Program-made: the position numbers and the translations under genes
Assembly (NCBI GenBank): GCA_023248955.1
Contig: JAHFDP010000029.1
Span: forward strand, 1-44,157
Reading direction: 5' to 3'
Length of the DNA stretch: 44,157 nucleotides
Source of the DNA: Deltaproteobacteria bacterium
GTDB taxonomy: Bacteria > Myxococcota > Myxococcia > Myxococcales > JAHFDP01
Shown here: piece after piece, positions 2,710 through 22,685 of the stretch
How the letters are laid out: every line of letters begins with the position of its first letter
Position numbering within the stretch: the stretch's first letter is position 1
Notes under the pieces: generated by a model
Told to the model about the DNA's origin: nothing
The model's database searches: none
Seen by the model: the letters and a program-made list of their open reading frames with translations, nothing else

Positions 2710-3876
2710 ATGACCCGACTTCTAGCTATCACCCTTGTCGCGCTCTGCTCCTGCCGATCGAGCGAGAAAATTTGCTCTCGGACCCTCTGCGGCACCAGTT
2801 GCGTCGATTTGCAATCGAGCCTTACCGATTGTGGCCTTTGCGGCCAGGCCTGTGCAGCGCCAGTTGGCGGCACTGTGGCCTGCGTCAGCGGCCATTGCGA
2901 TCCCTCCTGCCCCTCTGGATGGAAACTCAACGGCGCGTGCCTGAATTACGACGCCGACCCCGCCAATTGCGGCGGGTTCCGAAACGTCTGCGATGCCCCC
3001 GCCGGAGGAACCGCCACCTGCGTCTCTGGCAAATGTGCCGGAAGTTGCCCCGCTGGACGCGCCCTGTGCCACGCCCGCGTTTCGGGCGGCGGCACCTGCG
3101 TCGACAGACTCGCCGATCCTCACAATTGCGACGTTTGTGACGCCGTCTGCCCCGCACCGGACGGTGGAAGTGGGATCTGCGCAGGCGGTCACTGCGACAT
3201 GGGCTGCCCTGCATCTCAGTCTGTGTGCAGCACACCCGCGGGTTCGTTCTGCACCGATCGCTCGACCGATACCAAAAACTGCGGAGCCTGCGGCAAGACC
3301 TGCGCTACGGGCGAACTCTGCTGCGCAGGCGCCTGCCGCGCCACGAGCAACGATCCCACCAGCTGCGGCTGCGGTGCGGTTGCCTGTGGTGCACTCTCCG
3401 ACTGCGTTGCGGGCCAATGCGTTTGCCCAGTGCTGACCAACAAGAGCCCCGGTAGTGGCTCCTCGAGCGGCTACTGTGCGCCGGACGGTTGCTACGCGCT
3501 CTGGTACGCCTCGAAATCCTTTACGGAAACGTTCCATTTGGCGACCTTCGATGCTTCGAGTCTCACGTCCGTCGATCTCATTCTTCGCGCCGTTCTCGAC
3601 GATCATTCCACCGAGAAGGTTCCGTATTGCATCGCTATCTCGGTCAACAAAGGCCCAACCACCACGGTCGACCTGGATGACGTCCCCCACGGCGCGCCCT
3701 ATTCCGGACCGTTCACCAATTTCATGGATTGGACATGGACGCTGCCGCCCGCGGTCCAAGCGTCGTTAGTATCGGGCGACAACTCTTTTGAATATACCCT
3801 CGGCTGTGCGGAACCAATGTCTGACTGGATCCTCCTCGACAAGTCGCAGCTGCGACTCTTCCACCACGGCTGTTAG
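2710..3876 (+). CDS. Cysteine-rich secreted lipoprotein with C-terminal beta-sandwich-like domain
   Basis: A 388-residue exported protein. It starts MTRLLAITLVALCSC, a short signal ending near Cys15, so lipidation is likely though the box (LCSC) is not perfect. Residues about 20-245 are repeats of roughly 35-40 residues with the pattern C-x3-C..DCGxCGxxC..PxGGxxxCxxGxCxxxC, a style common in myxobacterial surface proteins and probably disulphide-bonded. From about residue 265 the cysteine content drops and a domain follows with alternating beta-like segments (TETFHLATFDA, SVDLILRAVLDD, SFEYTLGCAEP) that resembles carbohydrate- or ligand-binding beta-sandwich modules. No catalytic motif was recognised. 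The gene stands alone on the plus strand. Confidence 0.82.
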   Translation: MTRLLAITLVALCSCRSSEKICSRTLCGTSCVDLQSSLTDCGLCGQACAAPVGGTVACVSGHCDPSCPSGWKLNGACLNYDADPANCGGFRNVCDAPAGGTATCVSGKCAGSCPAGRALCHARVSGGGTCVDRLADPHNCDVCDAVCPAPDGGSGICAGGHCDMGCPASQSVCSTPAGSFCTDRSTDTKNCGACGKTCATGELCCAGACRATSNDPTSCGCGAVACGALSDCVAGQCVCPVLTNKSPGSGSSSGYCAPDGCYALWYASKSFTETFHLATFDASSLTSVDLILRAVLDDHSTEKVPYCIAISVNKGPTTTVDLDDVPHGAPYSGPFTNFMDWTWTLPPAVQASLVSGDNSFEYTLGCAEPMSDWILLDKSQLRLFHHGC

Positions 3877-8251: not shown

Positions 8252-11200
8252 TTAAAACGGTACCGTCGGCACCAGTTTCGAAAGTCCCCAACACACGATC
8301 TGACCACCGGCCATGGCGCACGTCTGACTCTCGCCCGTTGCAATGGCCTGAACACCCGACGTGAGTCCGATTACCGCAACTGGGTTTTTACTGTCCACGG
8401 TTGAGTTATTTCCAAGCTCGCCCGTGGCATTTCTGCCCCAGCACGAAACGCCTCCGTTCACCAGTGCGCAGGTGTGCGATCCGCCCGCTGCGATAGCGTG
8501 AACCCCAGAAGTGAGCCCCACCACGGTGACTGCCGAAGTGCTGTCGTTGAGCGTCCCATCACCGAGCTGTCCGTAATTATTGGTGCCCCAGCAGGAGACG
8601 CCGCCTTTGACGAGCGCGCAGTTGTGATCGAGACCAGCCGTGATGGCCTGAACACCAGCACCGGCAGCCAATCCGCTGACCGGGTAGACGCCGCGATACG
8701 GATAGTTGTGATTGCCACCCCACGAACTGTTGCCCCAGCAAAAAACGCCTCCACCTGTTAGGGCGCAGGTATTGAAGTCGCCCGCCGCAAGGGTCTGAAC
8801 ATCGGAGAGGCCGCACGGTTGATAGCTGCCGGGAACGAATTGGGCACCGTAACAAGCAGAGATCTGGTTGTAAAAGTCGTCGCCGAAGCAGACCGGAGTT
8901 CCCCGCCAGAGCGCGCATGCATGGAGCGATCCCGCGGTAACGGACTGCAAGTCCCAGTTAAGACCGCCCCAAACTCCGCTCGAGTCAAATCCGCCCCAAC
9001 ACCGGACGGTGCCATCGACGAGCGCGCAGGTGGTTTTGCTGTTCGCCGCGATGCTCTGGACGCCGCCCGCAAAAGGGGATCCGTAGATGGTTGAGGTTCC
9101 GTTTGTGCCGAGCTGCCCCTTGTCGTTCTTTCCCCAACAACGCATGCCGCCACCGCTGGCCACACAAAAGTGGCCATCTCCGACCGCGAGCCCGGTAAGC
9201 AGTTTGCCGAAACCGCTGACCTGCACTGGGCTGTTTTGCTGCGTCCCGGAGTTGTCGCCCAAATCGCCGAATAGGTTATCGCCCCAGCATTTGAGCGCGC
9301 CATTGGCCACCGCGCACGTGTGGCCATAACCAGCGGTGACAGCCTGCACGCCGCTGGTTAGGCCCGCCACATTCACGGGCACCAAACTCGAGTTCGTGGA
9401 GTTGTTTCCGAGCAGACCCACCGCGTTGTTGCCCCAACATTGCAATCCGCCGCTCACCACCGCGCAGGTGTGCAGCTGCCCCGCGGCGATGGATAGCGGC
9501 GCGCCGGTAGCGTACTGCGTCGGGTGCACGGAGACGAGCGCGACCTGGAGTGGAGCGCTACTTGGTGTGGTCTTGTTGTTGCCCAGCTGGCCAGCGCTGT
9601 TGTCACCCCAGCACCAGAGGCTCCCATTGGAAACCGCGCAGCTGTGGTTTTCGCCTAGCGCGAGAGTCTGCGCACCGCTTGTCAATGCGCTCACCGAAAC
9701 GGGAACCAGGCGGTCGATCGCACTGTTGTCACCAAGCTGCCCATAGAGATTACTGCCCCAGCACTTGAGGCCCCCATTCGCAACTGCACAAGTGTGGCCT
9801 CCCGCGGCGGCGAGCGTCTGCACGCCCGAGAGGCCGGCGACGGAAACAGGGATGTTGCTACTCACGGTGTTGTTGTTGCCGAGCTCGCCTTCGTCGTTGC
9901 GGCCCCAGCACTTGACGGTGCCGTCGACCAACGCGCAGCTGTGGTATTGACCCGCAACGATGGCTTGTACACCTGCACCGAGCCCAGACACCGGAGCGGG
10001 CGTAGCGCTCGATATGTTCGTGTTGTTGCCAATCTGGCCCTCGCTGTTTCGGCCCCAACAGAGAACAGCGCCATTCACCAACGCGCAGGAGTGGCCCTCG
10101 CCTGCCGCGACGGCCTGAGCACCGTCGCTAACACCGACCACCTGAACAGGCACAGCGCTCTGGGACAGTCCAGACACTGTTCCAAGCTGACCATAGCGGT
10201 TGTCGCCCCAGCACTGGACGCCGCCATTGGCCAAGGCACAGGTGTGGTAGGCGCCAGCGGCAAAGCTCGACGCGCCAACCATATTGGTGACCAGATTGAC
10301 CGTCATAAGCGCCACGTTCGAAGCGCCACCGCCCGGCGACGGATTGATCACGCTCACCGCGTAGCTTCCGCCGTTCAGTACATCGATCGCTGAAATCGAA
10401 GCCACGAGTTGCGAAGCAACCAGCGTTGTGGCGCGCTTGGCGCCGGCCCAGACGATTTGGGAACCGGACAAGAAGTTGCTGCCATTGACCGTGAGCGTGA
10501 ATGCCGTCGCGGGGTCCACGGCCGTTGGGGAAAGGCTGGAAATGATCGGCAGGGGATTTCCCACGGTGAACGGCATCGAAGCGGAACCGCCACCAGGAGA
10601 AGCGTTGATCACTGAAATGTTGAACGTTCCCAGTTTGGATAGCTGGATGGCCGGGATCGTAGCGGCATATTGAGTGGGCCCAACATATTGCAACGCACTA
10701 CAGGCGCCCGAACCGCACATCAATTGGGAGCTGCCAAAGAATCCGGTTCCGTGAATCGTGATGGCGAGGCTGGCGGAACCGACTACCGCCGAATTGGGTT
10801 CGACGCTGCTGATCGTCGGTTGGGGATTGGTCACGCCAAAATAGAGAGACGGGCTCGACACGCCGCCACCCGGCGTCGGATTCGTCACCGTCACGGGGTA
10901 AGCACCGATCCCTGCCGAAGCAATGTCCGCTGCCAGGATGGTGGCGATGAGGGTCGTGCTCGATTGGAAAACCGTGGCCCGCGGCGCACCGTTCCAGTTG
11001 ACGGCCGAGGTGAGTACAAATTTCGTACCGGTCACCGTCAGCATGAAGTCTGGGCCGCCGGTCGTTGCTGCGTTGGGCGCAAGCAGCGTTGCGGTGGGTA
11101 GCGGATTCGTCACCAGAAACGTCAACGCAGGCGTCGACGTCCCGCCACCGGGAATGGGGTTTGTTACCGTGACCGGAACCGACCCTCCGCCGGCGATATC

Positions 11201-12544
11201 CGCGGCGGCGATTTGCGCCACGAGCTCTGTCGGGGAACCGAACGTGGTCGTCTTGGGGGCCCCGTTCCAATTCACCGCCGCGCCCGGCACGAAATTCTTT
11301 CCGGTCACGGTGAGGGAGAAGCTGGGCCCCGCGGCGATCGAAGCAGTGGGTGCAGCACTCGAAACCAAGGGCGTCGGATTGTTCACCGCGAACTTCACTG
11401 TCGGATCGGACAGACCACCCCCTGGCGTGGGGTTTTGCACCGCCAGCGTCGCGTAACCCCCAGCAGCAACGTCTTCTGCTGCGACGTCAAGCAAGAGTTC
11501 ACTTTTCGACTTAAATGTCGCCTGGCGCACGGTGCCGTTCCAGGCCACTGAAGAACCTTCGACGAAATTTATACCCGTGAGGGTTAACGTAAACGCCGCC
11601 GCGCCCATCTCGACGGACTGCGGCGAAACACTACTTAGCGTTGGGACAGGGTTTTCGACCGTGAAGCGAGTCGCATTGGAGGTTCCGCCACCCGGCGTAT
11701 CGTTCTGCACGGTCACATCGACCAACGCTGCCGTCGCAAGATAAGCAGCTGGAATCTCCGCGGTCAGGCGAGTCGCGTCGACAAACGTGCTCTTGCATGG
11801 CTGGCCTCCCCACTGCACCATAGATCCAGCCACAAAATGGGTGCCGGTCACCGTCAAGGCGAGCGCTGCTGCGCCCAGCGTCACCGAGGCCGGATCGACC
11901 GCACTGGTCGTTGGTATGGGGTTCGCCACGGCGAAATCGAGGGTGCTGACGCTCAGACCGCCGCCAGGCGTCGGGTTCTGTACCGTAACCTTCACCACCT
12001 TCGCGATGGCCACGTCGTTCGCGGAGATGGTGGCCGTCAAGTTTCCCTGCACCAATAGGGTGGGGCGGACCCGGTCGGCCCACTGCACCTGCGATCCAGC
12101 CACGAAGTTGGTGCCCATCACGGTGAGCGTGAAAGCGCCGCTGTCCACGAGGAGTGTTGCGGGCCGCAGCGCGGTCGGCGCCGGCAGCGGGTTGTTGACG
12201 ACGAAGGGGAGAACCTCCGATTCGCCTCCACCGGGTGCTGAATTCGAAGCGGTGATGTTAACGATGCGTGCGGTGGCAACATCCACCGCGCTGACCGCGA
12301 GCGTCAGCTGCTTTTCGCTCACAAAAATGGCGGGCCGCAGCTTGTTGTTCCAACGGATCGTCGTCCCATTCACAAAACCAGTCCCGTTGATCAGGAGATT
12401 GAAATCCTTCTCGCCGGCAGTGGCCGCGGCGGGAACGAATCCGTCAATGGTAGGCACCGGATTGGTCGCACGAGAGGCGCCACCACCGTGACAAGCTTCC
12501 GCGACGAAGGCAAGACACAACAAGGCAAAGACTTGGCGGAACAC
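8252..12544 (-). CDS. Giant lipoprotein with 8 TIG/IPT and 14 RCC1-like repeats
   Basis: A 1430-residue exported protein. The start is GTG 12544, 4 nt after GGAGG. The signal MFRQVFALLCLAFVAEAC points to Cys18, though AEAC is a poor lipobox. Residues about 29-750 contain eight Ig-like TIG repeats of about 90 residues, each opening NPxPT and closing NPTPGGG. Residues about 755-1425 contain 14 repeats of about 45-55 residues with the core HTCALxNGGVxCWGxNxxGQLG, an RCC1/BLIP-II-like seven-bladed propeller unit; fourteen suggests two complete propellers. The paired Cys in each blade could form disulphides. The role is probably adhesion or protein binding at the surface. It is co-transcribed behind the LamG-like lipoprotein gene, 23 bp upstream. 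Confidence 0.88.
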   Translation of the reverse strand: MFRQVFALLCLAFVAEACHGGGASRATNPVPTIDGFVPAAATAGEKDFNLLINGTGFVNGTTIRWNNKLRPAIFVSEKQLTLAVSAVDVATARIVNITASNSAPGGGESEVLPFVVNNPLPAPTALRPATLLVDSGAFTLTVMGTNFVAGSQVQWADRVRPTLLVQGNLTATISANDVAIAKVVKVTVQNPTPGGGLSVSTLDFAVANPIPTTSAVDPASVTLGAAALALTVTGTHFVAGSMVQWGGQPCKSTFVDATRLTAEIPAAYLATAALVDVTVQNDTPGGGTSNATRFTVENPVPTLSSVSPQSVEMGAAAFTLTLTGINFVEGSSVAWNGTVRQATFKSKSELLLDVAAEDVAAGGYATLAVQNPTPGGGLSDPTVKFAVNNPTPLVSSAAPTASIAAGPSFSLTVTGKNFVPGAAVNWNGAPKTTTFGSPTELVAQIAAADIAGGGSVPVTVTNPIPGGGTSTPALTFLVTNPLPTATLLAPNAATTGGPDFMLTVTGTKFVLTSAVNWNGAPRATVFQSSTTLIATILAADIASAGIGAYPVTVTNPTPGGGVSSPSLYFGVTNPQPTISSVEPNSAVVGSASLAITIHGTGFFGSSQLMCGSGACSALQYVGPTQYAATIPAIQLSKLGTFNISVINASPGGGSASMPFTVGNPLPIISSLSPTAVDPATAFTLTVNGSNFLSGSQIVWAGAKRATTLVASQLVASISAIDVLNGGSYAVSVINPSPGGGASNVALMTVNLVTNMVGASSFAAGAYHTCALANGGVQCWGDNRYGQLGTVSGLSQSAVPVQVVGVSDGAQAVAAGEGHSCALVNGAVLCWGRNSEGQIGNNTNISSATPAPVSGLGAGVQAIVAGQYHSCALVDGTVKCWGRNDEGELGNNNTVSSNIPVSVAGLSGVQTLAAAGGHTCAVANGGLKCWGSNLYGQLGDNSAIDRLVPVSVSALTSGAQTLALGENHSCAVSNGSLWCWGDNSAGQLGNNKTTPSSAPLQVALVSVHPTQYATGAPLSIAAGQLHTCAVVSGGLQCWGNNAVGLLGNNSTNSSLVPVNVAGLTSGVQAVTAGYGHTCAVANGALKCWGDNLFGDLGDNSGTQQNSPVQVSGFGKLLTGLAVGDGHFCVASGGGMRCWGKNDKGQLGTNGTSTIYGSPFAGGVQSIAANSKTTCALVDGTVRCWGGFDSSGVWGGLNWDLQSVTAGSLHACALWRGTPVCFGDDFYNQISACYGAQFVPGSYQPCGLSDVQTLAAGDFNTCALTGGGVFCWGNSSWGGNHNYPYRGVYPVSGLAAGAGVQAITAGLDHNCALVKGGVSCWGTNNYGQLGDGTLNDSTSAVTVVGLTSGVHAIAAGGSHTCALVNGGVSCWGRNATGELGNNSTVDSKNPVAVIGLTSGVQAIATGESQTCAMAGGQIVCWGLSKLVPTVPF

Positions 12545-12567: not shown

Positions 12568-15500
12568 TTACGGTGCTGCGTTCTTATAGGGATGTCCCGA
12601 CGGGAGCGATCCTTGCAAGCCCCATTTCCAGGCCAGTTCGCCCTCGACGAATTGACGTTCGGACGTGGTGACGACGCGGTTGAAGACGCGAACTTCGGCG
12701 AAGTAGGAATCGACATACTGAACCTGGTGTGAATCGACGGCATTACCGGTGCCGCCGATGCCACACCAATCCCCGGCGCTCCCTGAGCCGAGGACAATGT
12801 TCCAGGCAGCGTCGCTCCCCGATGGGTAGCTGATGGTGGCCGCGGTGCCGTTGGACCAGACATTCGATCCGTGTGTGCTGCTGGATGTCCAGTCGAGCAC
12901 CTGCCACGATCCGGATCCGGCGATTCCCGTCAGAGTGGCCCGTGTATCCGCGTTCCAACCGCCAAGGATGTCAAAGGCATTGGCGCTTTGCCCCCCGTAA
13001 TACCCAATTTCTATACCGATACAGGCGCCGGCACCGGCGGCACAGGTGCCGCTTCCGAAGTTGAGCGGGTAATAGCCAGTCGTGTAGGTCAACGCTGTAG
13101 GGAGCTGGTAGACCGAAAAGACGCTCAAGTTGCTCAGCGCAGACGTGGTCGGGAACTGCAGGATCTGCGAGCTAGAAGCGGTGAAGGAGAGAACGGTGTT
13201 GCTGTTGAGCGCCACCGAACCGTAGTTTGGCTTCTTCGAGCTGGTGGCCTGCGTTGCGTTGTAGCCATTACCGCTCTTGTCGGCCCAGGTCGCGACGCGG
13301 TTGCTGCCATCTTTGGTGATGGTGGTGCTATCGGCGGCGTCCAGGAAGAGGAACGTTCCCGAAGGCTCGACATAGTATTTTACCGAACCGCTGGTGCCGC
13401 CGCCCGGCGTCCCGTTCGTAACGGTGATGGCGTTGGTTCCGACGCTGGTGATGTCCGAGGCGTTGATGGTCGCGGTGAGCTGCGTGGCGCTGACCGCCGT
13501 GCTGGTCCGAGCCGAGCCGGCCCAGTTGACGCTGGAGGTGGCGACGAAATTGGTCCCAGAAACGGTGATCGTGAAGGCGCTTCCGCCGGCCGATCCCCAG
13601 GTTGGGCTGACGCTGGTCACTGTGGGCGACGGATTGGTGGCGCTGACGGTGAAGGTCAGCCCGTTCGAGGTTCCACCCGGTGAAGGGGTGCTGGTTGCCA
13701 CGGTGACGCTGGGTGTTCCTGTCGAGGTGAAATCCGACGAGGGAATCGTCGCCGTGACTTGGGTGGGGCTTACGTAGGTTGTGGTGCGCGCGGATCCGCC
13801 CCAATTCACCGTGGCCGACGCGTTGAAGTTGCTGCCGTTGACCGTGAGGGTCAGCTGCGATGCATTTTGTAGCGCGAACCAGGGCGTGATTCTGGTGACC
13901 GCTGGCGCGGTATTCGAAGGCGTGGCGTTTTTCCAGGGATGGCCACTGGGGAGCGAGCTCTGCAGGCCCCACTTCCAGGCCTCCACGCCCTCGAGAAGTT
14001 GCCGTTCGGAGGTGGTGAGCACGCGGTTGTAGACGCGCACTTCGGCGAAGTAGGAATCGACATACTGAACCTGGTGTGAATCGACGGCATTACCGGTGCC
14101 GCCGATGCCACACCAATCCCCGGCGCTCCCTGAGCCGAGGACAATGTTCCAGGCAGCGTCGCTCCCCGATGGGTAGCTGATGGTGGCCGCGGTGCCGTTG
14201 GACCAGACATTCGATCCGTGTGTGCTGCTGGATGTCCAGTCGAGCACCTGCCACGATCCGGATCCGGCGATTCCCGTCAGAGTGGCCCGTGTATCCGCGT
14301 TCCAACCGCCAAGGATGTCAAAGGCATTGGCGCTTTGCCCCCCGTAATACCCAATTTCTATACCGATACAGGCGCCGGCACCGGCGGCACAGGTGCCGCT
14401 TCCGAAGTTGAGCGGGTAATAGCCAGTCGTGTAGGTCAACGCTGTAGGGAGCTGGTAGACCGAAAAGACGCTCAAGTTGCTCAGCGCAGACGTGGTCGGG
14501 AACTGCAGGATCTGCGAGCTAGAAGCGGTGAAGGAGAGGACGTTGATTCCATTGAGTGTATAGGACCCGTAGAGCGGCTTCTTCGAGGTGGTTGCTTGGG
14601 TCGCGTTGTAGCCGTTTCCGCTGGAGTCGGCCCAGGTCGCAACGCGGTTGCTGCCGTCTTTGGTAATGGTGCTGTTGTCCGAGGCGTCAAGCAACAGAAA
14701 GGCGCCGCTGGGATTCACCAGAAAGTTCTGCGCGCCGCTCGCACTGCCTCCGGAATTGTTCGCGGTGATGGCGAAGGAACCCGCGCTGGCAACATCGGAT
14801 GCGTTAATCGTGGCGGTGAGTTGCGTTGCGCTGACGAAGGTGGTGGTGCGGCCAGACCCGGCCCAGTTCACCGAGGCGCCGGAAAGAAATCCCGAGCCGT
14901 TCACGGTAAGCGTGAAGCCGGCCGCGCCGGCGGTCGCCGAAACGGGGGTGATGTTGTTGACGGTAGGCGTGGCCGTACTGGCGGTGAAATTCTGACCGCC
15001 GCTGGTACCGCCGCCTGGAGCCGGCGTGGTGACTGTAACGCTGGTAGTCGCCGCCGAAGCGATGTCCGACGCCGTGATCGAAGCGGTGAGCTGTGTCGCG
15101 CTCACGTAGCTGGTCGTCCGACTGCTGCCACCCCACTTGACCGTGGAGGCCGCGAAGAAGTTGGTGCCATTCACGGTCAGCGTGAATCCAGTGCCACCGG
15201 CCGTTCCCGACGTTGGGCTGATGCTGCTCGTGGTGGGCGCCGAGTAGATCTCGCCGATAAAAACGTTGGCTGAAATGTTGTGGGAGCCATCCTGGGTGTA
15301 GTCGGCGGGGTTCGATGTAGTGATACCACGCGCGACAAAGCCGCCCGCGTGGTAGCGCTTGCTGTACCACCAGGCCAGGCCGCCGTTGGGGTCATTGGCG
15401 GGGGTAGCGCTGACGTAGCCCATCAACGTCCCGGCGATATCGGGCTTGACGGTCAGCGCGTACATCGTGCCCACGGTCAGTGCCGTCCCCGGTGTCATGG

Positions 15501-16197
15501 GGATGAGAACGCGCGTTTTCAGGTTGAGCGTCGGGAGCACGGTCAGCGCACTCACGGATCCTGTCGCGTAAGCGTTGGTGGCTCCCTGGTCGTCGATGCC
15601 ACCCGAGCCAGTCAGGCTGTGAATTTCCGCCTTGATGTTCTGTCCCGAGCCACCCGCGGTCCGGATCAGATCCAACGCGACGAAAGTCACCATGCCTTGC
15701 GTGGCACCCGAACTTGGCGCCTGTGCTTTAAAGGTCTGCCCCACTTTTTGGAGTACACGGGTGTTGCTCTGGAGCGGAAAGCCGTTGCCCGAGATGACGC
15801 CGTTGCTGCCACCGCCGTTGGAAAGGCTGTTGACACCCTTGGAGATGGTAACCGTGGCCGTGCCGGTAGTGTTGCCCGCGCCGGTGTCGGTGACCGTCAC
15901 CGTGTCCGTTGCACCCGCTTGGCCGGGGCTGCCGGCGGTATAGAGACCAGTCGAGTCGATGCTACCCGCGGGGGAGGGTTGCAGCGCCCAGGTGTAGGGG
16001 CCGGTGCCCGTCGGCGTAAACAACTGCGTCTGCCCCTGCGCGAGCGTGGCGTTAGCGGGCGAAAGGATTGGATTTACGGCAGAAACGCGATGGCCGAGCG
16101 CTGAACCGTGGGGCATGCTTGGCTGCGCACAGGAAAAAAGGAGGAGCACGGCAGCGCCTGAAGGGATTACCTGCTGCAGAATAGGCTTAGAAGGCAT
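12568..16197 (-). CDS. Giant lipoprotein with TIG repeats and duplicated LamG-like domains
   Basis: A 1209-residue exported protein. ATG 16197 is preferred over an ATG 39 nt further up because it directly opens the signal MPSKPILQQVIPSGAAVLLLFSC (Cys23), and a possible -10 (TATGAT, 16224-16219) would put the transcription start downstream of the longer start. Order of parts: an Ig-like domain ending TATVTISKG, a beta-rich domain shared with the partial gene at 1-697, two TIG repeats, a LamG/concanavalin-like domain (FLLLDASDNSTITKDGSNR to EAWKWGL), two more TIG repeats and a second LamG-like domain of nearly the same sequence. LamG-like folds usually bind glycans or proteins, so a surface adhesin is likely. 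It heads an operon with the TIG/RCC1 gene. Confidence 0.87.
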   Translation of the reverse strand: MPSKPILQQVIPSGAAVLLLFSCAQPSMPHGSALGHRVSAVNPILSPANATLAQGQTQLFTPTGTGPYTWALQPSPAGSIDSTGLYTAGSPGQAGATDTVTVTDTGAGNTTGTATVTISKGVNSLSNGGGSNGVISGNGFPLQSNTRVLQKVGQTFKAQAPSSGATQGMVTFVALDLIRTAGGSGQNIKAEIHSLTGSGGIDDQGATNAYATGSVSALTVLPTLNLKTRVLIPMTPGTALTVGTMYALTVKPDIAGTLMGYVSATPANDPNGGLAWWYSKRYHAGGFVARGITTSNPADYTQDGSHNISANVFIGEIYSAPTTSSISPTSGTAGGTGFTLTVNGTNFFAASTVKWGGSSRTTSYVSATQLTASITASDIASAATTSVTVTTPAPGGGTSGGQNFTASTATPTVNNITPVSATAGAAGFTLTVNGSGFLSGASVNWAGSGRTTTFVSATQLTATINASDVASAGSFAITANNSGGSASGAQNFLVNPSGAFLLLDASDNSTITKDGSNRVATWADSSGNGYNATQATTSKKPLYGSYTLNGINVLSFTASSSQILQFPTTSALSNLSVFSVYQLPTALTYTTGYYPLNFGSGTCAAGAGACIGIEIGYYGGQSANAFDILGGWNADTRATLTGIAGSGSWQVLDWTSSSTHGSNVWSNGTAATISYPSGSDAAWNIVLGSGSAGDWCGIGGTGNAVDSHQVQYVDSYFAEVRVYNRVLTTSERQLLEGVEAWKWGLQSSLPSGHPWKNATPSNTAPAVTRITPWFALQNASQLTLTVNGSNFNASATVNWGGSARTTTYVSPTQVTATIPSSDFTSTGTPSVTVATSTPSPGGTSNGLTFTVSATNPSPTVTSVSPTWGSAGGSAFTITVSGTNFVATSSVNWAGSARTSTAVSATQLTATINASDITSVGTNAITVTNGTPGGGTSGSVKYYVEPSGTFLFLDAADSTTITKDGSNRVATWADKSGNGYNATQATSSKKPNYGSVALNSNTVLSFTASSSQILQFPTTSALSNLSVFSVYQLPTALTYTTGYYPLNFGSGTCAAGAGACIGIEIGYYGGQSANAFDILGGWNADTRATLTGIAGSGSWQVLDWTSSSTHGSNVWSNGTAATISYPSGSDAAWNIVLGSGSAGDWCGIGGTGNAVDSHQVQYVDSYFAEVRVFNRVVTTSERQFVEGELAWKWGLQGSLPSGHPYKNAAP
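12692..13191. repeat. Perfect 500-bp direct repeat, copy 1
   Basis: By reading, this segment is identical to 14039-14538 (offset 1347 bp). It encodes most of the second LamG-like domain of the 12568-16197 lipoprotein. On both sides the homology continues at protein level but the DNA diverges at once, for example at 13192 versus 14539. Confidence 0.9.
14039..14538. repeat. Perfect 500-bp direct repeat, copy 2
   Basis: The partner of 12692-13191, in the same orientation and frame. It encodes most of the first LamG-like domain. The sharp edges of identity suggest recent gene conversion or homogenising recombination. Confidence 0.9.
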
Positions 16198-16354
16198 ATT
16201 TAATCTTGTGTTCAAGCTATCATATCTGTCATCCAATCAACAAATAGACCCGTTGATCGAAAGTGATCACCAAAAGTCACCCGCACTATTCGGCGCCCTA
16301 GCGCCTCTGCCAGAAAATTTTGACGCCAGCTGAATTGGGCAGACAATCCCGCGC

Positions 16355-17782
16355 ATGCGCGCTCAAGTTTCCGAATCCGCTTCGTCCGATCTCGGTTCCG
16401 TAGGGTCGCCGTCGGTTCGCCAGGTGCGGCTGAACCGCATCGTCGTGAAGGACGGAGGCTGTGTCGTAGAAATCGACGGAAAGCAATTTTCCGTCGCCAA
16501 TTACAGTGCGTTCGGCTTGGCGATTCAGGTGCAGAATCCACGCGATCTGAAAGACGAGTACCGAGACGTTCCGCTCTTCTTGGAAGGAACGCTGATTGAT
16601 CGGCTCGCGCTGAACAGGGTCCGGGACGAGGCGACGGAGGGTGGATATACCGTTGCGTTTGAGATTCTGGGGGAGCCGCTGAAGTTGGCGAAGATGATGG
16701 CGATCGATCGCGCGCACCTGGTGATTCGGGAACACGCGACGGCGCTCGCGCGAGACGAAACTGTACCGGACACTTTCCGCGATCTCGTGTATCGAATTAA
16801 GGACTCCCTTGAGCACATCGAGAGTCTCGTCAATGGGCTGCGCAAGGGACAAGATCTCACGTCGGCCGAAGATGTTCTGGCCTTCGAGAACACCGTCACC
16901 GACGTCATCTCCGGACACATGAATGCGCTCCTTGCTCCGACGTTTGAGTCGCTGGCCAGGACACTCAAGAGCGCTCAGCCCAAGAGCGCGAAGATCGCCT
17001 ACGAGTTTTTTCGGGAACAACTCAAACACCTCATTTACCAGTCGCCGCTCTCCGAACGGGCCTTTCGAAAGCCTCTCGGATATCCGGGTGATTTCGAGAT
17101 GATGAATTTCATCTACCGTGCTGAAGATCACGGCGAGAGTCTCTTTGGAAAATGCCTTCACCAGTACTTCGTTCGTCATCCAAACGCGCAAGCTGTCAGA
17201 AATAGAGCGGACTATCTCAAGGCCCAAATTCGAGATGTGCTTGCGCGGCACAAGACAAAGGAGCCGCTGCAAATTCTTTCAGTCGCTTGTGGTCCGGCGC
17301 TGGAAGTTCAGATGCTCCTGAAGGAAGGTATCGATCGGAATAAGATCGAAATTCATCTCTTAGACCAGGACCTTTCCGCCCTCCAACACGCCCAACTTCA
17401 ATTGAGGACTACCGGAAAACGAATCGGTAATGGCCCACAAATTCACTACATTCACAAAACAATTAAAGAAGTGATCATCGGGGGCCTGAGCCGCAACTAC
17501 GACTTCATCTATTCCGCCGGGCTCTTCGATTACTTTTCAGACCCTGTTGCGCGTCTAGCTGCCGCGAAACTTCTCTCTCACGTCTCACCAGGTGGCCAAT
17601 TGGTGATCGGAAATTTCGCGGCGTCGCCGGGCCATCAGGGGCTCATGGAATTAGCGTTCGATTGGAATCTTATCTATCGAACTGAACAGGACCTGCGGCG
17701 ACTCTATCGCGATCTTGGCGAGAACGTGCGGGTCGACCACGAGCCGGAGCGAATCAATCTTTTCTTCGTCATTTCGAAATAA
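16355..17782 (+). CDS. PilZ-like domain fused to class I SAM-dependent methyltransferase
   Basis: A 475-residue cytoplasmic protein. Residues about 22-125 look like a PilZ domain: a beta-rich stretch with NYSAFG at 49-54 matching the [DN]xSxxG c-di-GMP motif, preceded by several Arg (RQVRLNR) that do not give a clean RxxxR. A helical segment follows (135-300) with the marked word KPLGYPGDFEMMNFIY (239-254). The methyltransferase core is at 305-475: motif I as LSVACGPALEV, an acidic end of strand 2 (HLLDQD), and YDFIYSAGLFDYFSD before SPGGQLVIGNF. The layout recalls fatty-acid methyltransferases such as PhcB, which makes 3-hydroxy fatty-acid methyl ester signals; that link is from memory and unproven. 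The cyclase gene follows after 9 bp. Confidence 0.8.
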   Translation: MRAQVSESASSDLGSVGSPSVRQVRLNRIVVKDGGCVVEIDGKQFSVANYSAFGLAIQVQNPRDLKDEYRDVPLFLEGTLIDRLALNRVRDEATEGGYTVAFEILGEPLKLAKMMAIDRAHLVIREHATALARDETVPDTFRDLVYRIKDSLEHIESLVNGLRKGQDLTSAEDVLAFENTVTDVISGHMNALLAPTFESLARTLKSAQPKSAKIAYEFFREQLKHLIYQSPLSERAFRKPLGYPGDFEMMNFIYRAEDHGESLFGKCLHQYFVRHPNAQAVRNRADYLKAQIRDVLARHKTKEPLQILSVACGPALEVQMLLKEGIDRNKIEIHLLDQDLSALQHAQLQLRTTGKRIGNGPQIHYIHKTIKEVIIGGLSRNYDFIYSAGLFDYFSDPVARLAAAKLLSHVSPGGQLVIGNFAASPGHQGLMELAFDWNLIYRTEQDLRRLYRDLGENVRVDHEPERINLFFVISK

Positions 17783-17791
17783 CTGGAACAA

Positions 17792-19249
17792 GTGGGCGGA
17801 CTCTTCTCAATTTTAAGACAACGGCCATTCGAGACGCTCCCACGCATTGCCTTCCCTGCGGAACCGACGCTCGACGAACTCCGCGATCGGGATCGCCTCG
17901 AGGAAATTCGCGAATTCGTAGCAGTTTGCAGCAACTGGCTAGCATTGCCTCTCTATCTCGTTTTTTGGCTCTGCGACCTGATTTACGTCCCCGAACATAA
18001 ATGGGAGTTTTTAGCCGTTCGTACAGCCATGGCGCTCAGCTGCCTCGGCATTAACTATGAGATCAAGCGCCCCGGTAACACGCTTCTCCGCACTGAACTC
18101 ATCGGAATTCTGTGCTGCGCCTGTAATAGCGTCACCATCACCTATTTGATTTTTCGTTCAGGCGACATCGATTCCCCTTATTACGCCGGACTCAATCTTG
18201 TTGGCTTCGGGCTAATTACATTCGTTCCGTGGAGACGCCCGACACTCATTGCAATCGTAACACTCACGTATGGTCCATTTCTTTTTATCTCGGCCGCGAC
18301 CCAACTGAATGCGAGCACCTTCCGCCCTTTCATCGTCCACTTCTTCTTCATCGTCGGCACCATCGTCATCGCCTTGGTGGTTCGCCACTTCACCGAAAAT
18401 CTCCGCCGGCGCGAAACCGATCTCCGCATGCGCAACGAGCTCGAAGTCCGCCGCAAGACGCAAGAAGCCGTCCGCCTTCGCGCGCTCAACCGGCAATTCA
18501 GCCCGCAAATCGTCTCGGCAATTCAGTCCGGCCGCATCAAGCTCGTCGACGCGCCGCACACCGCGTCCATCTGCACCATCTTCATCGACGTCGTGAACTC
18601 GACGCAGCACGTGAAAGACATGGCGCCCGAACAGGCCAACAAGGTCATCGCCATGTTCCTCGACGACACCATGCGAACGTTCCTCAAGTACAACATCACC
18701 ATCGACAAATTTCTCGGCGACGGCGTCCACGGCATGGCCGGCGATCCGGTTCCGCGTACCGATTACGTCGAGTCGGTCGTCGATTGCGCGCTGGAAGTGC
18801 TGGCGCGAATCCGCGCCAAGGAAGGAAATTATCGCGCGCTCTGGACCGATGATATGCAAGTACGCGTCGGCATCGCGATGGGCGACGCCAGCGTTGGCTT
18901 TTTTGGGAGCGAGGACTACTTCAAGAGCTACACTGCGATCGGTCGTCCAGTGAACTTGGCTTCACGTCTCTGTGCAGCCGCCGGCACCAACGAAATTCTC
19001 ATCAGCGAAAGGGTCGCGAGGCGAATCATGGAAACCAGAAACTACACACTGCGCAGCGCCGGGGCATTGAAGCTCAAGGGGTTCGAGTCCGAGAAGATCG
19101 GCGCCTTCGAGGTAACCAGCGACGACATCAGCACGATCACCGAAATTCCGATTTGCCCGGAAGGTCACGGCGTGCTGCACCTCGACAACGCCGGCGGCGT
19201 CTACGTCTTTCAGTGCCACTCTTGCGATTTTCTTCAGCGGGAGTTGTAG
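17792..19249 (+). CDS. Membrane-bound class III adenylate/guanylate cyclase
   Basis: A 485-residue protein starting at GTG 17792, 9 bp after the methyltransferase gene, so probably translationally coupled. Residues about 45-200 hold six predicted membrane helices (such as LALPLYLVFWLCDLIYV and IVHFFFIVGTIVIALVV), forming the sensor part. A short helical linker (200-245) leads to the catalytic domain at 255-440. The metal-binding Asp are D266 (FIDVVNST) and D310 (KFLGDGVHG), with K306 at a purine-contact position. The transition-state Asn/Arg are N388 and R392 in VNLASRL. It should make cAMP or cGMP as a dimer. The last 35 residues carry a His and three Cys (ICPEGHG, QCHSC) that could bind a metal. 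Confidence 0.88.
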   Translation: MGGLFSILRQRPFETLPRIAFPAEPTLDELRDRDRLEEIREFVAVCSNWLALPLYLVFWLCDLIYVPEHKWEFLAVRTAMALSCLGINYEIKRPGNTLLRTELIGILCCACNSVTITYLIFRSGDIDSPYYAGLNLVGFGLITFVPWRRPTLIAIVTLTYGPFLFISAATQLNASTFRPFIVHFFFIVGTIVIALVVRHFTENLRRRETDLRMRNELEVRRKTQEAVRLRALNRQFSPQIVSAIQSGRIKLVDAPHTASICTIFIDVVNSTQHVKDMAPEQANKVIAMFLDDTMRTFLKYNITIDKFLGDGVHGMAGDPVPRTDYVESVVDCALEVLARIRAKEGNYRALWTDDMQVRVGIAMGDASVGFFGSEDYFKSYTAIGRPVNLASRLCAAAGTNEILISERVARRIMETRNYTLRSAGALKLKGFESEKIGAFEVTSDDISTITEIPICPEGHGVLHLDNAGGVYVFQCHSCDFLQREL

Positions 19250-20102: not shown

Positions 20103-20193
20103 GCGATCTCCTGGATGCCTTGGTGTGCGCGGAGCATAATGCCGGCGCGCTGGCGCGCAAGTTGTGTCCGAAAAGAGTAATAAGTGTATTATT

Positions 20194-21909
20194 ATGAATG
20201 TGGACGACAGACGGCCCTCGCTGACCTCGCACGAGCTGGCACTCCTCCTCCTCGCCGTCGCGGCAATCGCGCTGGGCTGTTACGCACGGCTGGCAATGCT
20301 CAGCTATCCGAATCACGAATCGTTCGACGAGGCCCATTACCCGCGAGCGGCCGAAATACTGGTCGAACGCCAGCCCTATGGGAACATCTATCACCCGCCT
20401 TTTGGAATCATGTTGATGGCGACCGGGATTCTCCTCCTCGGCAAAACGCCGTTTGGCTGGCGATTCCCTTCCGCGATGGCCGGCCTCTTGACCATCGTGC
20501 TCGTCTCCGTCGCCGCGCATCAGGTAACCCGAAGTCGCGTTACCGCGCTCCTCGTCGCCTGCATGATCGCCATGGACGGCCTGTTCATCACGTTTTCCCG
20601 GACAGCACTGCTCGACAGCTTTCTCGTCCCGCTCATCTTCGCCGCGGTAGTGCTGAGCGATCGGGTGCGGCGGAGCACGGCTTTCGTCTTCGCCGTTGGA
20701 ACCCTCGTTGGCCTGGCGATGGCGACGAAATGGAGCGGTCTCTTTGTGCTAGCGCCCATCGCATGGATTGCCTGGCGGCGGGGATGGACGCGGTGGGTTC
20801 CCTTGCTAGCAATGTGGGCCTTCTTGATTTACGCGGCGCTGGTCGTCTTCAATGAAATCCTCCAGAAATCGCCCCATCCCATTCAATCAGCCTGGGCGTG
20901 GCAGATCGAAACGTGGCACTACCACCACCATTTAACCGAAGGGCATTTCTATGCGTCCCGCTGGTATCAATGGCCGTTCATGCTGGTACCCGTTCTTTTC
21001 GACAAAGGAGAACAGGAGGGGCTCTTTTGCACAATCATGTCGCTGGCCAATCCGTTCCTCCTCTATTCGTCGACGCTGGCCGTTGGAGGCACACTGGGAT
21101 TTGCGCCGCTTCAGCTTCACGAGCCCACCTTCCGGAAGCAGTTTCGAGAATCCTTTTTCCCAATTCTCGTCGGTTATGCCGCATTCTTTTTGCCCTGGGC
21201 CGTCATTAGTCGCCCGGGCTTTTTTTATTACTATCTTCCCGCTTATGGGTTTGCGCTGATCCTAATAGCAATACTTCTTACCCATCTTTGGGAAAACATC
21301 GGTTGGGGCAAATACGCCGTTCTCTGTTTCCTGTCGGTAGCGAGCGCCTGCACCGTTTATCTGCTTCCGCTCAATGTCGGCACTCCTCTAACCGATGCTG
21401 AATTCCGATCCAGAATGTGGCTGTCTTCCTGGGACGATCCCTCGAGATTCCATGACATGGGAACGTTACCAATCATCATCGATTTCGGAGCGCCGAACGT
21501 CGAGTCGTGGAGCGATCCGGAGGCGGCACCACAAATCCAAGATCTCGCGGAATTTGGATCTCTTTGGACGAACAACAACCATGTGTTTTTCCCATTTACA
21601 CGCGAAGGCCAGTCGGCGCGATTCAGTTTTGAATCAGCGGAAGCGTGCGTAGCGAATATCGATTTGTATGCAACGTCGGCCTCCGATTATGGAGTAATTT
21701 CCATTCGATTAAGTGGCGCGAAACGGCACGCGACCACGGCCGATCTTTATTCGAGCCAAGGAATTGGGCAACAAATTCTTCGTTTTTCCCACGTTGCTTT
21801 AAGGGCGGGAAAAAACGAACTCGAGGTGCGAATCACGGGCAAGAACGCAAGCTCTGGTGGATACCAGGCCGGATTCGATCGACTCGAATTTCGCTGCGAG
21901 CGTCCGTAA
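20194..21909 (+). CDS. PMT-family protein mannosyltransferase-like glycosyltransferase
   Basis: A 571-residue polytopic membrane protein of the GT39/PMT type. The first periplasmic loop holds FDEAHYPR, whose Asp-Glu (about residues 45-46) are the catalytic pair of PMT enzymes, and HPPFGIML. FSRTALLDSFL and, in the C-terminal four-helix part, ASRWYQWPFM and FFYYYLPAYGF also fit the family. Such enzymes move a mannose from polyprenyl phosphate to Ser/Thr of exported proteins. After the last membrane helix (about residue 390) some 170 soluble residues remain with a beta-sandwich look (ARFSFESAEACVANIDLYA, LEVRITGKNASSGGY), possibly a glycan-binding domain. GTG 20164 is an alternative start; neither start has a good ribosome binding site. 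Confidence 0.85.
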   Translation: MNVDDRRPSLTSHELALLLLAVAAIALGCYARLAMLSYPNHESFDEAHYPRAAEILVERQPYGNIYHPPFGIMLMATGILLLGKTPFGWRFPSAMAGLLTIVLVSVAAHQVTRSRVTALLVACMIAMDGLFITFSRTALLDSFLVPLIFAAVVLSDRVRRSTAFVFAVGTLVGLAMATKWSGLFVLAPIAWIAWRRGWTRWVPLLAMWAFLIYAALVVFNEILQKSPHPIQSAWAWQIETWHYHHHLTEGHFYASRWYQWPFMLVPVLFDKGEQEGLFCTIMSLANPFLLYSSTLAVGGTLGFAPLQLHEPTFRKQFRESFFPILVGYAAFFLPWAVISRPGFFYYYLPAYGFALILIAILLTHLWENIGWGKYAVLCFLSVASACTVYLLPLNVGTPLTDAEFRSRMWLSSWDDPSRFHDMGTLPIIIDFGAPNVESWSDPEAAPQIQDLAEFGSLWTNNNHVFFPFTREGQSARFSFESAEACVANIDLYATSASDYGVISIRLSGAKRHATTADLYSSQGIGQQILRFSHVALRAGKNELEVRITGKNASSGGYQAGFDRLEFRCERP

Positions 21910-21939: not shown

Positions 21940-22278
21940 TTAGGTGTCGAGCAACAACGCGGCAATCTTTCGCTGCACCTCGACCACGACGGATCTCGGG
22001 ACGCGCCCCTTCGGCTTCATTTTTCGGGCCCGCCAATCGAGGTTTTTCAAGTGATCCGCAAGAACCGCGCCCTGAACAGGTAGCCCTGCCAATAAAGGAA
22101 CCTCAAACGGGTAGCCTTTGACATGAGAGGTAATCGGGCAAACTACCGCAAGCCCTACTTTTTCGTTGTACGCCTTCGGAGAGAGAACCAGCGCGGGCCG
22201 ATGGCCAGCCTGCTCGCGACCTGCCTGCGGCATGAAATTCAGCCAGACCAGATCTCCTCGGTCCGGTACGTAACTCAC
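21940..22278 (-). CDS. mazF: MazF endoribonuclease toxin
   Basis: A 112-residue toxin very like E. coli MazF: YVPDRGDLVWLNF, EQAGHRPALVLSP, CPITSHVKGYPFEV and DHLKNLDWRAR all have direct counterparts. The catalytic Arg (in GHRP) and Thr (in CPIT) are present. MazF is a ribosome-independent mRNA interferase; E. coli MazF cuts at ACA, but the site preference here is not readable. The start is GTG 22278, sharing GTGA with the antitoxin stop, so the two are translationally coupled. It is convergent with the mannosyltransferase gene, whose stop is 30 bp away. Confidence 0.95.
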   Translation of the reverse strand: MSYVPDRGDLVWLNFMPQAGREQAGHRPALVLSPKAYNEKVGLAVVCPITSHVKGYPFEVPLLAGLPVQGAVLADHLKNLDWRARKMKPKGRVPRSVVVEVQRKIAALLLDT

Positions 22279-22514
22279 CAGACCTCGCCTCCGACCCGTT
22301 CACCGGTATCGGTTTCGCCGTGGAGGTTATCGGCGGTCACTCCTGCCAGCAACGATTTCAGCGTCGGCTGCGGTTCGATGGGGACAACAATGAGACGCCT
22401 GCCGCGAAGTTGCAGATCGACGTTGGATCCATCTTCGATGTTCGCCCCTTGCGCGAAAGATCGCGGGATGCGCATCGCCAGGCTATTGCCCCATTTTTGG
22501 ATTTTGCCTCGCAT
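22275..22514 (-). CDS. mazE: MazE antitoxin
   Basis: A 79-residue antitoxin. ATG 22514 is chosen because it follows GGAG at 6-nt spacing and the protein then starts MRGKIQKWGNSLAMRIPR, the classic MazE AbrB-fold opening; a longer frame upstream adds 39 residues unlike the family. The C-terminal tail (LAGVTADNLHGETDTGER and a final GGEVW) matches the E. coli MazE segment that wraps around MazF. It should neutralise MazF and repress the operon. It overlaps mazF by 4 bp. Confidence 0.93.
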   Translation of the reverse strand: MRGKIQKWGNSLAMRIPRSFAQGANIEDGSNVDLQLRGRRLIVVPIEPQPTLKSLLAGVTADNLHGETDTGERVGGEVW

Positions 22515-22536
22515 GGACGGCTCCGTGTCTACTTTG

Positions 22537-22565
22537 AAGATACATCGATTTTTGGTGACACGCAA
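22537..22565 (-). promoter_or_regulatory. Predicted promoter of mazEF
   Basis: On the minus strand TTGCGT (22565-22560) and TATCTT (22542-22537) are separated by 17 bp. The predicted transcript start is about 15 nt upstream of the mazE ATG at 22514. GTGTC/GACAC arms surrounding the -10 could form part of an operator. Confidence 0.4.
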
Positions 22566-22685
22566 ACCGTCTTTGCGTTCCGAGCGTGCCACTGCTGCTG
22601 GCGATTTGGCGCCCCCCACGCTGTATTGCAACCGCCATGACGACAGCCCGCGCCTCGACCGCTAAGCGACTGTGCGGGCGACGCA

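Follow-up and report, generated by a model that had tools for sequence, protein, structure and literature searches.

The locus and its genomic setting

Within the window, by which we mean the whole 44,157-nucleotide stretch of DNA that was analyzed, two genes lie on the plus strand separated by a gap of 9 bp: a methyltransferase gene (P0001; 16355..17782, 475 aa) and a cyclase gene (P0002; 17792..19249, 485 aa, GTG start). The open reading frames confirm the pair as it had been described in an earlier reading made from the sequence alone (the “sequence-only reading”). Downstream of P0002 come a DUF6130 gene on the opposite strand and then a gene for a PMT-type mannosyltransferase, both recognized by Pfam. 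Promoter and terminator scans at the locus gave results at chance level.

The host assembly, which is assigned to the order Myxococcales, measures 3.8 Mb, is 96% complete, and encodes 7 GGDEF domains and 15 cNMP-binding domains. Among 145 genomes of the window's class, no full-length P0002-type cyclase was found elsewhere, and the GC content of the pair (0.54-0.57) is lower than that of the window (0.61); because of these two observations, a lateral gain of the pair by its host fits the data. The same observations would also suit mis-binning, in which the contig belongs to a Bdellovibrionota genome and the presence of the pair in a Myxococcales-order assembly is an artefact. Against this, the surrounding genes are ordinary ones (Mfd, a SurA/PdxA cluster, and a DUF4388-DnaJ gene) with fairly uniform GC, a nearby gene at 20164-21909 is equally low in GC, and the best relative found shows only ~40% identity. 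We therefore regard mis-binning as improbable; lateral transfer explains the data equally well, and the system is real in both cases.

Some other genes of the window are worth recording. On the minus strand, 12568-16236 encodes a TIG-repeat surface-type protein with a big, near-identical internal duplication, which the translation shows and which shared antisense ORF starts (12871 and 14218) also reveal, while 8252-12544 (minus) combines TIG and RCC1 repeats in one protein of 1430 aa. Two overlapping genes at 21940-22278 and 22275-22631 (minus) look, by eye, like a toxin-antitoxin pair of the MazF and AbrB/MazE types. The product of 2710-3876 (plus) has a Stig1-like Pfam match, a family whose name comes from plants.

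The methyltransferase and its N-terminal domain

The class I methyltransferase domain of P0001 occupies residues 300-475 (17252..17779, plus strand) and is recognized by its ACGPALE loop, D337, an FDY motif, Pfam, and the AlphaFold model of the protein (pLDDT 92.9). The Pfam matches are Methyltransf_20, above its cut-off, and Methyltransf_25, at its cut-off; the SAM-binding loop reads ACGPALEV, and both it and the NxSxxG motif of the sequence-only reading are indeed present. Upstream of this domain, residues 235-246 (17057..17092, plus strand) carry a signature, RxxxKPxGYxGD, in which R235, P240, G242, Y243, G245, and D246 are invariant in an alignment of 68 sequences of the methyltransferase family. 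A fold search with the whole protein returned only methyltransferases, of many kinds, and the predicted fold does not fix the substrate, as class I methyltransferase folds take many. Pfam CheR matches P0001 partially and below threshold (21 bits, where 27 are required; E 2.5e-4); a sequence search of the PDB with the family profile has, all the same, a CheR as its best relative (E 1.6e-5).

Because the whole-protein search returned only methyltransferases, the N-terminal domain (residues 1-140) was folded alone. The resulting model, a barrel with a helix (AlphaFold pLDDT 86.6), has Foldseek matches to YcgR, MapZ, MotI, PA4608, MrkH, Alg44, PlzA, and BcsA, and nearly all the leading matches are PilZ proteins; MapZ within its CheR1 complex is among them. 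The scores are modest: the top PDB match is an uncharacterized Legionella protein at E 2e-4, with the others at 6e-3 and weaker. The suspected PilZ-like region is thus borne out as a predicted PilZ fold, a six-stranded barrel plus helix, covering residues 28-135 (16436..16759, plus strand). Pfam PilZ does not match P0001 itself and does match 7 of 22 members of the methyltransferase family.

Of the PilZ motifs, [DN]xSxxG is present as NYSAFG (residues 49-54) and is conserved across most of the clade. The RxxxR motif for c-di-GMP, which would lie upstream, is absent from P0001, where only R25xxR28 is found; four positions before R28 stands V, and a hydrophobic residue in most close homologues, so that the first arginine is missing. 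The proposal that c-di-GMP gates the methyltransferase is accordingly left unsupported.

The cyclase

An alignment of P0002 with homologues (eight in all) shows six hydrophobic peaks between residues 50 and 197. They lie in a sensor region, residues 27-222 (17870..18457, plus strand), that shares homology with six-helix receptors of the PhcS type; a search of the PDB with a six-helix profile found no relative of this domain. The class III cyclase catalytic domain follows at residues 254-432 (18551..19087, plus strand), with a Guanylate_cyc Pfam match at E 1.4e-15 and all six catalytic and ATP-specificity residues in place (D266, D310, K306, T381, N388, and R392). Six helices and a class III core had both been proposed from the letters, and both hold.

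An output of cAMP or cGMP had also been proposed, and this can be narrowed: the K306/T381 specificity pair points to an adenylate cyclase, and so to cAMP, while the cGMP part falls away. In two cyclases of the genus Bdellovibrio (L092 6415-7857 and L086 6414-7856), the position equivalent to N388, the transition-state Asn, is occupied by P, and cyclase activity in that genus may be low or altered.

The protein ends in a Cys tail (CPEGHG...CHSC; residues 455-478, 19154..19225, plus strand), which is probably a zinc ribbon. The tail noted earlier as Cys/His is conserved; its type is better given as a CPxx..CxxC Cys tail, with Cys4 or Cys/His in homologues.

Conservation of the pair

A P0002 profile was searched in 291 Bdellovibrionota genomes, 35 of which had a match at E<=1e-50, and 34 of these were examined. 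The methyltransferase gene lies immediately upstream, on the same strand, of 29 of the 34 six-helix cyclases; of the five cyclases that lack it, one is cut by a contig end. Full-length copies of both genes are found together at seven named or MAG loci (three of which are also counted within the 29), including the complete chromosome of B. bacteriovorus kdesi. The Cys tail occurs in all 29 methyltransferase-paired cyclases, as it does in that of the window and at four more paired loci, and is absent from all five unpaired ones (L191-L194 and L196). We treat a functional association of the tail with the methyltransferase as a lead, as the correlation may reflect one divergent clade.

Starting from the methyltransferase, a single-sequence search of genome contigs with P0001 gave no match, and a profile search gave 562 candidates. 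From named genomes, 80 loci were taken as the sample for neighbourhood counts, and a homologous six-helix receptor gene lies directly downstream at 64 of them. As 11 of the 80 have no six-helix neighbour, the family could have other jobs besides this pairing. Of 40 methyltransferases from the window's class that score at least 120 bits, 35 are directly followed by a homologous six-helix receptor; among the five exceptions, two sit at contig ends. By record titles, the pairing of methyltransferase and six-helix receptor spans more than 10 phyla, among them Bdellovibrionota, Myxococcota, Pseudomonadota, Thermodesulfobacteriota, Verrucomicrobiota, Spirochaetota, Acidobacteriota, Planctomycetota, Nitrospirota, Neomarinimicrobiota, Calditrichota, and others.

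These counts answer the question of co-occurrence raised by the sequence-only reading in favour of a conserved pair. They also refute the idea that P0001 and P0002 are chance neighbours with unlinked functions, which we reject and to which we give practically no weight.

Relation to Phc quorum sensing

Ralstonia and Cupriavidus are known to carry synthase/receptor pairs of the Phc type. The product of Ralstonia PhcB is methyl 3-hydroxymyristate or methyl 3-hydroxypalmitate, and the sensor is PhcS (PMC11960443). As a stand-in for Ralstonia PhcB and PhcS, homology was tested on a plasmid operon of Paraburkholderia graminis that encodes a methyltransferase, a six-helix histidine kinase, and two response regulators, matching the phcBSRQ layout (PMC2842291). 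P0001 is 30% identical to the methyltransferase of this operon over 262 aa (E 6e-34) and has the KPxGYxGD signature in common with it. A membrane-domain profile, built from the cyclase-type clade and one kinase-type sister, matched the PhcS-like Paraburkholderia kinase over the whole domain (E 9e-14) and gave no match to the host genome's other three cyclases. What had been drawn as an analogy with PhcB is thus a homology, for the methyltransferase and for the receptor.

Published Ralstonia mutations correspond only in part. R22C in PhcB, outside the methyltransferase domain, weakens the cell-density response (PMC6989110), and R22 is also found in the Paraburkholderia methyltransferase, within the N-domain. 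The Ralstonia register was rejected as proof for the Paraburkholderia operon: R22 matches, the kinase histidine is 233 rather than 230, and two other published Ralstonia positions have no direct match in the operon numbering.

A kinase/response-regulator output was tested for in the window and is absent; we therefore place the pair outside the Phc system, as a Phc-type variant with a swapped output.

One alternative is that the two genes are linked in function through a non-ligand target, e.g., a lipid or quinone that is altered by the methyltransferase, with the six-helix domain sensing the resulting membrane state. Myxobacteria do have shorter and more remote relatives of the methyltransferase that lack such receptors, and the many kinds of methyltransferase matched by the P0001 fold would allow it. 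We consider it quite unlikely, given the close same-strand pairing with one receptor family across so many phyla and the presence of a family member in a Phc-like operon.

Exchange of outputs

By manual count, the 64 paired receptors comprise 42 with kinase-type outputs, 14 with SpoIIE phosphatases, 7 with cyclases, and 1 that is truncated. In genomes of the window's class, the partners assigned by Pfam are SpoIIE (12) and HisKA kinases (4), with a cyclase in the window alone. A rarer output near relatives is a CheA-like Hpt/HATPase protein at L134. SpoIIE pairings are frequent in Myxococcota, Desulfobacterales, and Spirochaetota, and kinase pairings in Verrucomicrobiota (L044-L062 and L096-L158); the open-access papers searched mention neither of these. 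In Rhizobium leguminosarum (L165 2712-4709, minus strand), a GGDEF-EAL protein with a weak six-helix match is encoded divergently from a related methyltransferase and is a possible further swap.

In a tree of 82 methyltransferases, P0001 falls in a clade (support 100/96) of mostly cyclase-paired Bdellovibrionota genes. Nested within this cyclase-type clade, with starred support, is the methyltransferase of an Ectothiorhodospiraceae locus (L084), whose partner joins the membrane domain of P0002 (35% identity, E 9e-40) to a kinase-receiver-Hpt output. It follows from the nesting and the shared membrane domain that output domains were swapped without separating the synthase from the sensor.

The variety of partners also matters for a CheR-like reading, in which the methyltransferase, gated by PilZ, would methylate carboxyl groups of the cyclase or its linker and so set its sensitivity, with no diffusible signal. 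CheR is among the weaker Pfam matches of P0001 and is the best PDB relative of its family, MapZ-CheR1 is a known PilZ-methyltransferase pair whose complex appears among the fold matches, and a Cys tail found only with a methyltransferase partner would suit docking. However, the kinase and phosphatase partners share the six-helix domain alone, with no common cytoplasmic methylation helix or Cys tail, and inspection of P0002 revealed no methylation region of the MCP type. Moreover, the family member from the phcBSRQ-like operon is expected to produce a small ester, as PhcB does. On balance, adaptation of this kind is unlikely, if still worth keeping in mind.

Proposed mechanism

We favour, as the probable though by no means certain reading, that P0001 and P0002 form a Phc-type pair, the first making a signal and the second receiving it, in which an adenylate cyclase stands where Phc has a histidine kinase. 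P0001 would O-methylate a small, probably fatty-acid-like substrate to give a membrane-permeable ester, which the cognate six-helix domain of P0002 would bind. Binding would raise or lower the cAMP output of P0002, to which cAMP receptor proteins would then respond; the host genome does encode cAMP-binding proteins, and c-di-GMP synthases as well. The PilZ domain may sense an intracellular input, possibly c-di-GMP or mere protein contact, and so tune the methyltransferase. A c-di-GMP step would be the weakest part of this scheme, because the first RxxxR arginine is replaced in P0001 and in most of its clade.

More broadly, and more tentatively, the pair may belong to a widespread, previously unrecognized signalling class, in which PilZ-equipped PhcB-like methyltransferases work with one six-helix receptor family whose outputs are freely swapped (kinase, SpoIIE, adenylate cyclase, and perhaps GGDEF-EAL). 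In predatory and related bacteria, a methyl-ester signal would then set cAMP directly and would itself be tuned by an intracellular second messenger. This wider proposal is a serious possibility that we hold short of probable. The conserved pair also offers a candidate chemical signal for Bdellovibrio, where the c-di-GMP phosphodiesterase Bd1971 is stimulated by cAMP (PMC6717892).

Comparison with known systems

In CqsA/CqsS and LqsA/LqsS, a signal synthase is encoded with a six-helix receptor kinase; CqsA and LqsA are PLP enzymes, not methyltransferases, and we liken these systems to the window pair by description, not by sequence.

It has been proposed that the six-helix anchors of adenylate cyclases, those of eukaryotes included, act as receptors for which no ligands are known (PMC4821796). 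In an artificial chimera, the quorum receptor CqsS placed on the adenylate cyclase Rv1625c gave 4.8-fold stimulation by ligand (PMC4821796); a six-helix quorum receptor can therefore drive a class III cyclase. P0002 resembles the Rv1625c type in its six-helix anchor on a class III cyclase. It differs from that type and from the chimera in that the cyclase is naturally joined to a Phc-type sensor and the putative ligand synthase is encoded alongside. Here, then, is a natural six-helix cyclase that has a probable ligand synthase as its neighbour and a sensor in common with quorum receptors of the Phc type, and for this reason a receptor role of six-helix cyclase anchors becomes testable.

For the PilZ domain, the comparison is with Pseudomonas, where the PilZ protein MapZ inhibits the methyltransferase CheR1 when c-di-GMP is present (PMC6370697), so that a PilZ protein is able to control a methyltransferase. 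P0001 likewise brings together a PilZ domain and a SAM methyltransferase. Unlike MapZ-CheR1, it does so in one polypeptide, without RxxxR, and with a PhcB-like methyltransferase rather than CheR.

The closest comparison is with Phc itself. The sequence-only reading held that no system with this pairing had been described. For the version with a cyclase this stands, in that the open-access literature yielded no account of a cyclase output in a Phc-type pair, nor of the SpoIIE version or of the methyltransferase family across these phyla. For a methyltransferase with a six-helix receptor it does not, as that is the Phc arrangement. As in Phc, a methyltransferase gene of the same family is directly followed by a gene for a homologous six-helix receptor. 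Unlike in Phc, the output of P0002 is a predicted class III adenylate cyclase with a Cys tail and there is no histidine kinase, no PhcR/PhcQ-type genes follow P0002, and the PilZ motif is clearer in P0001 than in the Phc-like protein. The counts also extend synthase/receptor pairs of the Phc type from the Burkholderiaceae to more than 10 phyla.
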